A stretch of DNA of 55,861 nucleotides from Armatimonadetes bacterium 55-13 (GTDB lineage Bacteria > Armatimonadota > Fimbriimonadia > Fimbriimonadales > Fimbriimonadaceae). The notes below the pieces were generated by a model. It searched no databases. It was not told the DNA's origin and was given only the letters and a program-made list of their open reading frames with translations. Positions 15,478-20,086 of the stretch are shown here, piece by piece. Every line of letters begins with the position of its first letter. The stretch's first letter is position 1. The stretch is from positions 93,742-149,602 of the forward strand of contig MKRX01000015.1 of the NCBI GenBank assembly GCA_001898035.1. The letters run 5' to 3'. Position numbers and translations under genes: made by a program.

Positions 15478-16143
15478 ATGGTCAAACGAATCGACCACCT
15501 GATTTGCCAAGTTGCAGACATCCATGCGGCCCACGAGTATCTGAAGTCATTAGGATTTCCCGAGTCGTGGCCGATCGGCCCTTTTTGGCCCCATGCCCTG
15601 ACTTCGGGCATCGCCATCGGCGGAGTGAACTTGGAATTGATGCAGCCGGAGGAAGGTGCGCCCGAGCGAGCCACGATCGACATGATCGTATTCGAGCCTT
15701 ACGACACCGAGCGCAACTTTCACGAACTTCAAAGTGCGGGATTTGAGTGCCATATCTTCGACAAGATCGAGCCCGACCCTGAATTGCTGGCATTGCGCGG
15801 CTTCGATGCCGCGAAGGCAGAGTTGCCCCAGCGGATTTGTCGAAATATACTGTTCGACAAGGCGACGGCGATTCCGATGTTCTTTTGCGAATACGTCCCG
15901 TTTCTGCGACAACGCCTTGGCCCTCAGAATCCCGCCCTTGGGAGTCCTTATGGAGAGGTGGTCGCGCTTTCCTTGCAAACGCCAGATCCTGAGCTTGCTT
16001 GGCGGGAATGGGACTTGATGGGAGTTCCTGACGCCATTTCACTTTCGATTCAGAAGGGACCTTCTCGGCGCATCACCGAGATTCAGGTCGAAGCCGGACC
16101 TGTGCCTTGGTCCGGCTTCTCAAAGACCTTCGACTTCGTCTAG
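15478..16143 (+). CDS. VOC / glyoxalase-like domain protein
   Basis: 221 residues. The start MVKRIDHLICQVADIHAAHEYL followed by LGFPES and GIAIGGVNLELMQ is the beta-alpha-beta-beta-beta unit of the vicinal-oxygen-chelate superfamily; a second half-domain occupies about 110-215. The His in IDHLI and Glu in NLELM are at the usual metal-ligand places. The family includes glyoxalases, dioxygenases and resistance proteins, and nothing in the context fixes the reaction. It starts just after the terminator of the upstream gene and has no clear promoter of its own. Its stop overlaps the prcB stop tail-to-tail by 4 bp (16140-16143). Cytoplasmic; substrate unknown. Confidence 0.83.
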   Translation: MVKRIDHLICQVADIHAAHEYLKSLGFPESWPIGPFWPHALTSGIAIGGVNLELMQPEEGAPERATIDMIVFEPYDTERNFHELQSAGFECHIFDKIEPDPELLALRGFDAAKAELPQRICRNILFDKATAIPMFFCEYVPFLRQRLGPQNPALGSPYGEVVALSLQTPDPELAWREWDLMGVPDAISLSIQKGPSRRITEIQVEAGPVPWSGFSKTFDFV

Positions 16144-16886
16144 CGAGTCCTCAGGACGGCGTCAACGGTGGGCTTGAGCAATTCGAGAGACACTTCGCGG
16201 GTCCCGTTTCGATCCAAGATCCGCGTGACGGGCAGCGTCTTGGCGAATCCGCCAGTCGCGGAGTCTAGCTCTGCGGCAATGTCTAGCATTTCCAGTCCAT
16301 CTCGCAGGACTTCTTCCATTGGGCGCGATTCAAACGGGCCTTTCATTCGCGCGATGTATTCGAAGACACCTCGAATACGCTCCGAACCAGAACCGGCGCA
16401 CGCATAGCTGCCATTCTGGAATCGCGCTCCCGCGCCGTCGAAGAAGTACACGCCAAACTCGTCCTTCTTTGCATCGTAGACGGATACGATCGGGAGGAAT
16501 ACTCCGATACCCTGAGCAGCCATGGGGGCGTTTCCTGCAAGCGCTTTCGAAATCTCCGCGAGTTTGCCTTCTACAGACATCTCGTGAAGGACCGATCGTT
16601 TGTAATATTTGAACGAGTGTTTCAGGAATCGACAGACTTCGACGGAACGCGCAAACGCACCACTGATGGCGACAACCGTGGCATCATCCAGCGCGAAAAT
16701 CTTTTCCGCCTGGTCATACATGATCAGATTTCCGGCGGTCGCGCGCCGGTCCGCCAGGCTCAAGACTCCGCCATCGAACTTCAGAGAAAGAACTGTAGTC
16801 CCGTGAACTTCAGAGGGACTGGCTCCGGATGTCGTTATGGGCGACTTGACCAGTTCATCAAAAGATCGATACTTGGCTTCGATCAT
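16140..16886 (-). CDS. prcB: Proteasome beta subunit with propeptide
   Basis: The proteolytic subunit of a bacterial 20S proteasome. 248 residues. A 29-residue propeptide ends in EVHG, and processing there exposes Thr30 as the N-terminal nucleophile (TTVLSLKFDGG). Counting from that Thr as 1, Asp17 (LADRR) and Lys33 (AEKIFAL) are both present, so the active site is complete. In its operon it directly follows the ubiquitin-like modifier gene, with a 4-bp ATGA overlap. That strongly suggests it degrades proteins tagged with this modifier. No alpha-subunit gene (prcA) follows: the next gene downstream is on the opposite strand, and the stops overlap. The alpha ring must be encoded elsewhere or be dispensable. 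HslV is excluded by the propeptide and the context. Confidence 0.93.
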   Translation of the reverse strand: MIEAKYRSFDELVKSPITTSGASPSEVHGTTVLSLKFDGGVLSLADRRATAGNLIMYDQAEKIFALDDATVVAISGAFARSVEVCRFLKHSFKYYKRSVLHEMSVEGKLAEISKALAGNAPMAAQGIGVFLPIVSVYDAKKDEFGVYFFDGAGARFQNGSYACAGSGSERIRGVFEYIARMKGPFESRPMEEVLRDGLEMLDIAAELDSATGGFAKTLPVTRILDRNGTREVSLELLKPTVDAVLRTR

Positions 16887-17062
16887 TGGCCGGACCGCTG
16901 GCGATACTTTTTCGCCTGATCTGGGTCGACCTTTTTCATTCGCTTGAGCAGCTCATTCCCACCCCCCGGACGCTTGATATCTGGGGCTGAGGGTCCGCCG
17001 TCTTCTCCTAGCTTCTTAGTTCCGGGGTTAGCCGGTCTTGTCAATCGCTCACCGTCGCTCAT
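16883..17062 (-). CDS. UBact, Pup-like ubiquitin-like protein modifier (59 aa)
   Basis: 59 residues, mostly charged and disordered-looking, with a Pro/Gly-rich N-terminal half (RPANPGTKKLGEDGG) and a C-terminal tail KKYRQRSGQ. The terminal R-(S/T)-G-(E/Q) and the YRQR segment are the hallmark of UBact, the Pup-related modifier reported from Armatimonadetes, Nitrospirae and other phyla. The last residue is Gln, so a Dop-type enzyme would have to deamidate it to Glu before isopeptide ligation to target lysines. Its start overlaps the dop stop and its stop overlaps the prcB start, each by ATGA. AGAGGTG serves as Shine-Dalgarno 4 nt before the ATG. The tail and the synteny make the call firm despite the small size. 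Confidence 0.92.
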   Translation of the reverse strand: MSDGERLTRPANPGTKKLGEDGGPSAPDIKRPGGGNELLKRMKKVDPDQAKKYRQRSGQ

Positions 17063-18579
17063 GAATCACCTCTTAGCATTCGCACGAGAGTTTCTACGTC
17101 GTCAATATCCATCAAGTGTCTCTCATAGGCCAAATCCGGCTTCAGATCCACTTCTACCAATCGATCCGCCACTTGGAACGTCACTGATCGCCAACAGGCC
17201 GCACGTATTTCTTGGCGAAACTTCTGGATTACCATGCCTCGGACCCATGCCCGCGTCCCTTCTGGATGCCCCTCGGCTCTCTTCTCGATTTCTTCTTGAT
17301 TGAATGGCACGTCCACGTCGTGCATCTCCTCAAGCGCGTGATAGAGGCCCTCGGCAGGGTCTACGTTGTGATACTCCAAGTCGTAGGCTCGGGCCAGAGG
17401 GTCTTTCCAGCTTCCACCCTCGTCGACAAACGTTTGGATCACCCCTTCCTTTGCCGCCCAATCGACACGTCGACGGACTTCAGACCATGCCTGATCCGCA
17501 GTTCCTGTTGGGATCTCACTCCGCCGAGCGCGACCGACGAGATGCAGATTTCTCAAGATTTCCCGACAGTCGGCGATGAGATCCCGCATCTCTTCGTCGA
17601 GGCTGAGCAGATCCTCCGCCGCGGCAAAGTACGACTCTAGGATTTCATAGGCGTTTGTCCAATTTCGACCCGCCAGGGCCACTTTGAATTCCAAATTACG
17701 GTCCCGACTGATGACCTTGAATGCATCAACGGGATCGGCCAGGGTCCATTTTGGTGCATGACCGTCCAGAGCGAGGAGAAGCGCCAGCTTTACCAGGCCC
17801 ACTTTGCGGGCTGTACACTCCGGCATCATATTGGCGTCCCCCGAGATGACGTGAAGGCGTATCCATTGAGCGGGGTCGGCGTGAGCTTCGTCGCGTGTGT
17901 TAAACACCGGGCGGCGGTATAAGGTCTCTGCGTTCACGGGCTCCATGAAGAAGTCAGCCCGCTGACTTATCTGATAGTCGCACCAGGCACCCGACTCACT
18001 GCCAACTTTTCCGGCTCCGGTCAGGATCTGACGAGCCACCAAGATCGGCGTTATTGATTCGAAGAGGGTGTCAAAAGGAACAGATCGCGGCACCAGGTAG
18101 CTCTCGTGGGTTCCGTATGAAGCGCCGTGAAAGTCCGTGTTGTTCTTGTACATTTGCACGAGGAGCCCTGTCCTCTCCGACATAGCTCTGGCCGCATTGA
18201 GAACGACCGACTCCCCGTAACGGTCTTGAATCGCCAGTTCTCTCAATGACCAACACTCGGGAGTTGCGTACTCAGGATGGCCATGATCGTTGTAGAATCG
18301 AGCGCCGTTGGGCAAGATTCGATCCGAGCGAACGTCTTGAGTCTCTCCATGCGGACGTTCTCGGTCAAAAGCCGCATCGATTGGATCGACGGCCAGGCGT
18401 TCTAGTTGAAAGCCCCGCAGATCGGCTCTAGGGGATTCATGGCGGTAATCCCAAATAGCAAGGCACTCGCCCGGGTATCCCCGAACGAGCGCCATCGCAT
18501 CGTCAATTTGGTCCTCCGCGCCGTGGCCTTCGACGAGTAACCCGTACTCTGTCTCCACCCCGGCGAGGATTCGCCGCAT
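17059..18579 (-). CDS. dop: Dop/PafA-family enzyme, Dop-like (UBact deamidase/depupylase candidate)
   Basis: 506 residues of the glutamine-synthetase-like Dop/PafA fold. N-terminal GVETEYG carries the metal and ATP ligands. NGARFYNDHGHPEYATPEC holds the catalytic aspartate (YND). YKNNTDFHGASYGTHESYL and VFNTRDEAHAD follow. Three features favour Dop over the ligase PafA: the DHGHPEY spacing (PafA has DVGSHPEY), the ASYGTHE motif (PafA: NSYGCHE), and an insert after WDYRHESPRADLRGFQLERL that matches the Dop loop region. Dop deamidates the modifier's C-terminal Gln and removes it from substrates. It is the second gene of the operon, 2 bp after the lipoprotein gene, and overlaps the UBact gene. 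A dual-function or ligase role cannot be ruled out without a second paralogue in view. Confidence 0.85.
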   Translation of the reverse strand: MRRILAGVETEYGLLVEGHGAEDQIDDAMALVRGYPGECLAIWDYRHESPRADLRGFQLERLAVDPIDAAFDRERPHGETQDVRSDRILPNGARFYNDHGHPEYATPECWSLRELAIQDRYGESVVLNAARAMSERTGLLVQMYKNNTDFHGASYGTHESYLVPRSVPFDTLFESITPILVARQILTGAGKVGSESGAWCDYQISQRADFFMEPVNAETLYRRPVFNTRDEAHADPAQWIRLHVISGDANMMPECTARKVGLVKLALLLALDGHAPKWTLADPVDAFKVISRDRNLEFKVALAGRNWTNAYEILESYFAAAEDLLSLDEEMRDLIADCREILRNLHLVGRARRSEIPTGTADQAWSEVRRRVDWAAKEGVIQTFVDEGGSWKDPLARAYDLEYHNVDPAEGLYHALEEMHDVDVPFNQEEIEKRAEGHPEGTRAWVRGMVIQKFRQEIRAACWRSVTFQVADRLVEVDLKPDLAYERHLMDIDDVETLVRMLRGDS

Positions 18580-18581
18580 TT

Positions 18582-20000
18582 CTACTTTCTGAAGACCAGG
18601 AATCGGCCCGTACTCAGGAAGTCACCCGGAAGGGTGCCGCCGTAGATAGGATCGCTGCTGGACTGAAGCGTGAACGTACCGGAGCAAATCTTCTGAATCG
18701 CTTCGGCTCGCTGGGAGTCGGCAAGACTATCGATTGAAATGGTATTGCCGTTCTTGTCCTTAAATCCGCTTACCGTACCGGTGATTTCATTGTGCGCATC
18801 GCCGTCATCAACCTGTCCGATCGGATAAGCCTTCAGCGTGGCAGGGTCGCCCTGATCAGCGCCAAAGTCAATCTCTCCAAAGTACATGTTCGTGATGGTG
18901 CTGCCGCTTCGCTTGATGATGACAACATCCTGCTGGCTCAGTTCGCGAAGAACGTCCGTGCCGGATTTGCTGTCAAACACCATGCGCTCTTGGCTTCGCG
19001 GGAAGGTGATTACTTCGAACGAACTCAGGTTACCGATCGCGTCAGAGAGCTGATAGTAAGACCCTTGAAGAGCGGTGATTTGGTGCGCGGAGGTACCGGG
19101 GAAAGTTCCGTCGGACGGGTCAACGTCTCGAGGATCATCCTGAGTAAGCGTATAGGTGCCGAACGGAGGTCGAACTCCCGATGGTCCAGGCAAGTTCACG
19201 ATGCCGGTATAGGTTCCGGGAACGGCATTGATCGGGGTTAGAACCTCGAAATAGCCACCGGAGCTACTGGAGGACAAGGCGATGAAGTCACCACTGAAGA
19301 AGACTCGGCCTGCCTTGCCACCGTTGGTCATATCCGGGCGATCACTTGAGGACATTCCCGACAGATCGAACATCACGTAGTCGCTGAGGAAACCGTTGAG
19401 CGTGTCAACACCTTGAACCGGATTCGATGCCAAGTTCTTGGCTTCGAACAGATCTTGCTGGAAGATCGGATCGGGGTCAACGGCGGACAGGTCGAACATC
19501 GACTCGTCGAGGTAAACCTGAACAGCCGTTTGGCGAGCTGGGAGCGCGCGGATGCTAGCTGGCAGGTCAACGCTGACAAGCGGCTGATCGGTACCGGTTG
19601 AGAAAACATCTGGACTGGTCGTCCCGTTGTCTACTCGTAGTTCTTGAACTTCAAACGTGTACGACGTGAAGAAGCGAGAACTGGTCGTCTGAACATCCAA
19701 CGGCAAAATCTGATGGGTAAAGCCGTTCAGTTGAAGCGTTAATGCCGGCGGAAGAACTGTCTCAGACTGACCAAATTCATCCGTTAGAACTGCTCGCTTA
19801 ATCACCGCAGTCACGTCGCCGATATCTCGACCAGCGCCGGTGAGAAACGAAAAGTTAACCGTTCCTGGCACCAACTGCAACTTCACATAAGAACCGTCTC
19901 CGGTCGGAGGCGTGGTCGAGCCGCCACCTTTTCCACCGCCGCCACCACAACCAGCCGCGACAATCGACGCAGTGGCCAAAGCCAAAGCCCATTTTCTCAA
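18582..20000 (-). CDS. Exported lipoprotein of unknown function
   Basis: About 472 residues. I chose a TTG at 20000 because it gives a classic lipoprotein signal, MRKWALALATASIVAAGC, with GAGGTG 8 nt upstream. Longer starts at 20024 (ATG) and 20057 are possible, but 20057 lies at the promoter's start site. After the lipid-modified cysteine comes a glycine/serine/threonine linker, then an all-beta-looking region with no named domain. Segments such as AVIKRAVLTDEFGQSETVLPP resemble DUF4382-like surface lipoproteins, but this is weak. It has its own good promoter (20058-20086). The dop gene starts 2 bp after its stop, so the proteasome operon is probably transcribed from here. A functional link to the proteasome is not implied. 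Confidence 0.72.
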   Translation of the reverse strand: MRKWALALATASIVAAGCGGGGGKGGGSTTPPTGDGSYVKLQLVPGTVNFSFLTGAGRDIGDVTAVIKRAVLTDEFGQSETVLPPALTLQLNGFTHQILPLDVQTTSSRFFTSYTFEVQELRVDNGTTSPDVFSTGTDQPLVSVDLPASIRALPARQTAVQVYLDESMFDLSAVDPDPIFQQDLFEAKNLASNPVQGVDTLNGFLSDYVMFDLSGMSSSDRPDMTNGGKAGRVFFSGDFIALSSSSSGGYFEVLTPINAVPGTYTGIVNLPGPSGVRPPFGTYTLTQDDPRDVDPSDGTFPGTSAHQITALQGSYYQLSDAIGNLSSFEVITFPRSQERMVFDSKSGTDVLRELSQQDVVIIKRSGSTITNMYFGEIDFGADQGDPATLKAYPIGQVDDGDAHNEITGTVSGFKDKNGNTISIDSLADSQRAEAIQKICSGTFTLQSSSDPIYGGTLPGDFLSTGRFLVFRK

Positions 20001-20057: not shown

Positions 20058-20086
20058 AGTATAGCAATTTATCCCGTATTTGTCAG
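20058..20086 (-). promoter_or_regulatory. Sigma70-type promoter of the lipoprotein-dop-UBact-prcB unit
   Basis: On the minus strand CTGACA (20086-20081) and TATACT (20063-20058) are 17 nt apart, with one mismatch in each box. The start site would be near 20051, about 50 nt before the TTG at 20000. It is the only good promoter seen upstream of dop, UBact and prcB. Confidence 0.65.

Follow-up and report, generated by a model that had tools for sequence, protein, structure and literature searches.

Does a bacterium that keeps a proteasome beta subunit next to a ubiquitin-like tag, with the alpha subunit nowhere beside them, possess a complete system for tagging and degrading proteins? The question is raised by a 55,861-nucleotide stretch of Armatimonadetes bacterium 55-13 (family Fimbriimonadaceae; hereafter the window), taken from contig 15 of a 4.53-Mb genome that is 99% complete in 27 contigs. 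The window carries genes for the tag deamidase/deconjugase Dop (dop), the modifier UBact and the proteasome beta subunit PrcB (prcB), which an earlier note, made from the letters of the DNA, had described as a module without prcA. Surveys find Pup-type genes to be genomic neighbours in nearly fixed order (PMC3511204, PMC2588565). We conclude that the genome very probably encodes a complete UBact-proteasome system with its genes dispersed over four loci; the gene set is of a complete, known kind, in a new genomic arrangement.

Pupylation serves as the model for the mechanism (PMC3511204), and from it we infer conjugation, assembly and degradation as follows. By homology to pupylation, Dop would convert the C-terminal glutamine of UBact to glutamate, and the ligase PafA would join the side-chain (gamma-) carboxylate of that glutamate to substrate lysines. 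The coiled-coil/OB AAA ATPase Mpa/ARC would capture the tagged substrates and thread them into a 20S core whose beta rings consist of PrcB and whose alpha rings consist of PrcA, and Dop would also remove the tag.

The triplet and the components elsewhere in the genome

The three frames of the triplet are as the earlier note described them, joined by ATGA at both the dop/UBact and the UBact/prcB junction (TCAT on the plus strand, 17059-17062 and 16883-16886), and the opposite-strand gene that it saw at the prcB end is a convergent plus-strand gene (15478-16143) whose end is overlapped over 4 bases by the prcB stop. The proposed identities also hold, each being a strong family match, and with such profile scores (PF00227, NF033388/PF20513, PF03136) the matches are not due to chance. 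Dop matches PF03136 with an E value of 4.6e-129, scores 371 bits as Dop versus 261 as PafA in NCBIfam, carries the NGARxYxDHxHPEY active-site motif and aligns approximately end to end with Acidothermus Dop (4b0r/5lrt), including the Dop-loop segment upstream of NGAR; its closest named relative is in Fimbriimonadaceae bacterium SJ693 (66%). PrcB has a 29-residue propeptide followed by Thr30 as Thr1 and, in mature numbering, Asp17 and Lys33, so that the active site is intact as had been claimed. Its closest relatives in the PDB are the PrcB proteins of Rhodococcus and Mycobacterium tuberculosis, with the latter of which it aligns in the GSGS and DSATGG stretches.

UBact scores 88.5 bits against NF033388 (cut-off 35) and 80.9 bits against PF20513 (E 5.7e-23; cut-off 27.8), and a search of solved structures gave no useful match for it. 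Its C-terminus, RQRSGQ, is the Gln form of the R-x-R-S-G-[EQ] ending expected of short UBact modifiers and is expected to need deamidation; 18 endings in Q and 5 in E were counted among the sampled family loci, some loci being counted twice. In comparison with the same-genus genome G260, 34 of 47 differences fall at third codon positions, with proportions of synonymous and nonsynonymous differences (pS and pN) of 0.79 and 0.10, a substitution pattern that marks the frame as a real gene under purifying selection. The gene adjoins dop and prcB in an order that is identical in 20 of 20 family loci. Lysine remnants of the tag had been proposed as a mass-spectrometric signature in the form GE; trypsin cleavage after Arg, between RQR and SGQ, should give SGE instead, a calculated +273.096 Da on Lys after deamidation. 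In genome G013 (L071 9906-10103, minus strand) a second, divergent UBact-like gene directly follows UBact, its product having a proline-rich N-terminus and ending YEQRSGQ, possibly as one of a tandem modifier pair. The dop gene itself apparently lies in two frames in L043 (genome G040) and in G257:C72, possibly through a frameshift or a sequencing error.

The remaining components are found elsewhere in the genome (Table 1). Exactly two PF00227 genes are present, prcB in the window and prcA on contig C3, and exactly two PF03136 genes, dop in the window and pafA on contig C2. There is one clear proteasome ATPase genome-wide, on contig C6, which scores 451 bits against TIGR03689 over positions 24-509 of 512, under that model's cut-off of 504.75 yet far above other AAA families. 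NCBIfam ranks the three genes best as 20S alpha (C3), PafA (C2) and pup_AAA (C6), and relatives of known structure are PrcA for the C3 candidate and, as the best match, Mpa for the ATPase, while the matches of the PafA candidate include both Dop and PafA entries because the two families are close. PafA and Dop, the 20S alpha and beta subunits and an Mpa/ARC-type ATPase are thus all encoded, at four loci; clustering in a single locus, which is usual for such systems and not needed for function, is absent. The search for prcA, the ATPase and pafA that the earlier note had recommended therefore yields one of each, on three other contigs. None of them lies beside the triplet, as it had said; its phrase "without prcA" is right for the locus and wrong for the genome. 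Of the explanations that it offered, an operon split across the genome describes what is found, and so does a distant or divergent alpha ring, since PrcA on C3 scores 68 bits against an NCBIfam cut-off of 139 and is recognised as alpha by fold.

Table 1. Features of the UBact-proteasome system and the adjoining operon head; coordinates refer to the window unless a locus and contig are named
Feature	Position	Strand	Basis
prcB, proteasome beta subunit, 248 residues	16140-16886	minus	PF00227 (E 1.7e-21); PDB relatives; catalytic residues
UBact modifier, 59 residues	16883-17062	minus	PF20513; NF033388; purifying selection
dop, tag deamidase/deconjugase, 506 residues	17059-18579	minus	PF03136; NCBIfam; Dop alignment; motif
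Predicted lipoprotein, ~472 residues, TTG start, lipobox VAAGC	18582-20000	minus	Position; family conservation
Promoter-like site, CTGACA-17-TATACT, TG before -10	20058-20086	minus	Consensus scan
prcA, 226 residues	L002 1417-2097, contig C3	plus	PF00227; NCBIfam 20S alpha; fold
pafA, 494 residues	L004 1408-2892, contig C2	minus	PF03136; NCBIfam PafA best
Mpa/ARC-type ATPase gene	L005 1450-3162, contig C6	minus	TIGR03689; PDB relative Mpa

Taken alone, a locus without prcA, mpa and pafA could be the remnant of a decaying or incomplete system that tags proteins without 20S degradation, much as some Actinobacteria keep pupylation without proteasome genes (PMC3511204). We consider this very unlikely, given that all parts are present in the genome and across the family, that the active-site motifs are intact and that UBact is under purifying selection.

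The alpha subunit and the tail of the ATPase

Alpha subunits are marked by the N-terminal helix H0, which beta subunits do not have. An AlphaFold2 model of PrcA built on an alignment of 36 sequences (mean predicted local distance difference test score, pLDDT, 94.5) has such a helix at residues 4-22, and the best 50 Foldseek matches shown are all actinobacterial proteasome chains (template modelling score ~0.8, 20-23% identity), M. tuberculosis PrcA being the closest. Because the model combines the H0 helix with these fold matches, the product is, by predicted fold, clearly an alpha subunit. The alignment holds 23 invariant columns, among them K48, which aligns with a lysine of M. tuberculosis PrcA that we take to be the activator-docking lysine. 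Compared with the linked PrcA of the phylum, that of the family ends earlier at the C-terminus and carries a one-residue deletion near column 99.

This shortened C-terminus, together with a separation of prcA from prcB that is unusual for bacteria, would suit a different arrangement, in which PrcB is a beta-only protease of the HslV or Anbu kind and the distant prcA serves something else. Such a division of labour is highly improbable. By sequence PrcB is nearest to actinobacterial PrcB, and it has a propeptide; neither the N-terminal helix nor the invariant lysine has been lost from PrcA; and the two subunits are retained together and, in genomes G177 and G181, lost together. A separate HslV-like gene is moreover present in some members of the family, and sampled Armatimonadota that lack UBact usually have a short PF00227 gene.

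At its very end the ATPase differs from M. tuberculosis Mpa, in which a GQYL tail is required for opening of the 20S gate (PMC8142254). The ATPase of the window genome ends KSVI and those of other family members end similarly; in all 27 UBact loci with a readable ATPase the last two residues are aliphatic ([IV][IV]), versus G[QH]Y[LF] in 17 of the 19 proteasome loci that gave no UBact match and that we take as Pup type. This contrast in the C-terminal residues suggests that the ATPases of UBact systems probably dock to the 20S core by a different tail, a distinction that we did not find stated in open papers and that may be known elsewhere.

The system is closest to the UBact conjugation system of Armatimonadota, Nitrospira, Verrucomicrobia and others (PF20513 / NF033388), with which it shares the modifier family, the RQRSG[QE] C-terminus found in Armatimonadota, the pair of Dop and PafA, an Mpa-type ATPase with an aliphatic tail, and both PrcB and PrcA. 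Elsewhere these genes usually form one cluster. The present genome differs in having prcA, pafA and mpa at loci of their own and a lipoprotein gene ahead of dop. The actinobacterial Pup-proteasome system has homologous enzymes, proteasome and ATPase, and a tag ending in Gln is likewise expected to need Dop, but Pup ends GG[QE] and its ATPase usually G[QH]Y[LF], in contrast to RSG[QE] and [IV][IV] for UBact; the tag and ATPase of the window genome, ending RQRSGQ and KSVI, have neither the GG[EQ] nor the GQYL of the actinobacterial type, whose gene order is described as rigidly conserved (PMC3511204). Unlinked alpha and beta genes are common for the archaeal 20S proteasome. That system resembles the present one in this respect and differs from it in having no Dop, PafA or UBact and in using another ATPase (PAN).

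Several points weigh against a complete and working system. PrcA, PrcB, Dop, PafA and the ATPase all score under their NCBIfam equivalog cut-offs; the ATPase is without the GQYL tail, as are all UBact-type ATPases examined, so that its docking to the 20S core is an assumption; and we found no biochemical evidence in the open literature for UBact conjugation in Armatimonadota.

Dispersal across the family and the history of the cluster

Among 61 Fimbriimonadaceae genomes, PF03136 is present in 59, PF00227 in 58, the Mpa-type ATPase in 56 and PrcA, by an alignment-based search, in 55. The possibility that prcA is absent from family genomes with one PF00227 gene was rejected when this search recovered it in nearly all of them. 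Genomes G177 and G181 (same genus, 1.5 Mb, 97% complete) lack UBact, Dop, PafA, Mpa, PrcA, PrcB and the lipoprotein described below; in them the components were lost jointly. Most of the remaining misses fall in incomplete assemblies. In all 20 family loci the cluster consists of dop-UBact-prcB only, and what the earlier note took for the partial cluster of one genome proves to be fixed throughout the family.

An assembly or binning artefact might come to mind for a genome in 27 contigs whose prcA lies ~6 kb from a contig end. However, prcB lies ~110 kb inside its contig, the neighbours of the triplet and of mpa are common across the family, and in six single-contig relatives (G085, G092, G111, G194, G234 and G238) dop, prcA, mpa and pafA occupy separate places, at least tens of kb apart except for prcA and mpa in G234 (~7 kb). 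Since single-contig genomes show the separate loci, dispersal is not an artefact of assembly, and we assign that explanation a negligible probability. The distance between prcA and mpa is within ~7-13 kb in G234, G143 and G267, perhaps as a trace of old linkage or by chance.

The order of the genes in relatives indicates how the dispersed arrangement may have arisen. Most clusters in other families of Armatimonadota read mpa-dop-UBact-prcB-prcA-pafA and a few are partial; Nitrospira, Nitrospinota, Poribacteria and further groups usually share this order. The sister families of the order (f2, f3 and f4) have dop-UBact-prcB-prcA, some with pafA in addition, and mpa was not found within the regions read at their loci, one f4 locus being too short to judge. 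By parsimony the break-up would have been stepwise: the ATPase gene may have been the first to leave the ancestral six-gene cluster, at or near the level of the order, pafA and prcA would have been out of it by the time of the family ancestor, and the remaining dop-UBact-prcB would have acquired the lipoprotein gene in front. The triplet has neighbours common to the family on the opposite strand (yceD-, plsX- and fabH-like genes, named from their translations), and prcA comes after the same M28-like peptidase gene in several family genomes; because the neighbours of the triplet, mpa and prcA recur in this way, the moves are old.

A divergent and unlinked PrcA could also mean that a foreign prcA has taken the place of the family's native one. 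In the PrcA tree, however, the 21 family sequences form one clade (SH-like approximate likelihood ratio test support 99) that is sister to the linked PrcA of family f4 of the same order (96). The tree speaks against replacement by horizontal transfer, to which we give next to no credence, and supports vertical descent: on this phylogeny the native prcA appears to have been relocated, not replaced.

Other clusters in the wider sample depart from the usual order. In Nitrospinota, loci L165, L168 and L199 are apparently rearranged with prcA before UBact, L165 having an apparent second prcB. Verrucomicrobia-type loci L170, L173, L177, L180 and L197 hold Mpa-Dop pairs, and no UBact or proteasome gene was recognised in the ~5 kb downstream of them. 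In L198 and L221, from records titled Chloroflexi, Dop is followed by a small open reading frame ending PTPQPGGE/PTPQPGGQ, possibly a distinct modifier, with PafA nearby and no proteasome genes nearby. Most sampled Armatimonadota without UBact (e.g., G020, G034, G014) have no Pup-ligase gene and one short PF00227 gene, probably HslV; Pup-ligase-family genes occur in G005 (G005:C39:22669-25780, two adjacent) and in G006 (G006:C623), genomes in which UBact was undetected (loci L236 and L237).

A predicted lipoprotein gene ahead of dop and the meaning of dispersal

The earlier note saw an operon of three genes; the three are there, and it missed a fourth, conserved one at their head. This gene encodes a predicted lipoprotein, starts at a TTG preceded by AGGTGA and ends 2 bases before dop. 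In 20 of 20 family loci dop is immediately preceded by the end of a gene on the same strand (gap -5 to +125 bp, mostly within 20 bp), and profile matches confirm lipoprotein homologues at that place. The profile finds a match in 31 of 31 sampled family genomes that keep the system and none in G177, G181 or 28 other genomes of the order. Searches of the protein against Pfam gave no match and against NCBIfam none of use; its model is beta-rich (pLDDT 78) and has no match in the PDB at E <= 0.001. From position and conservation, the gene would be the first of the operon and specific to the family. A scan for promoter consensus found 4 sites versus 2.0 expected by chance, the best of which lies on the minus strand just upstream of the lipoprotein gene (Table 1) and is suggestive only.

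It is conceivable, although rather unlikely in our estimate, that the system has been rewired, with tag, detagging enzyme and catalytic subunit expressed from a lipoprotein-led operon, the PrcA gate, unfoldase and ligase controlled separately, and the lipoprotein acting as a functional partner through which proteasomal turnover is coupled to the cell envelope.

We found no paper in the open literature dedicated to UBact in Armatimonadetes or Fimbriimonas, and no description there of the lipoprotein or of a family-wide dispersal with separate alpha and beta genes. A practical consequence is that a locus without prcA should not be taken as a genome without prcA. For UBact, whose biochemistry is little studied, the family offers genomes in which each component is mostly present once; the operon's lipoprotein and the distinct tail of UBact-type ATPases are leads open to test. 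In this family the two 20S subunits, ligase and unfoldase are encoded apart but are retained or lost as a set, which suggests that the system can do without expression from a single operon; and with dop, UBact and prcB together in every family locus examined, the genomes provide a natural test of which adjacencies matter.

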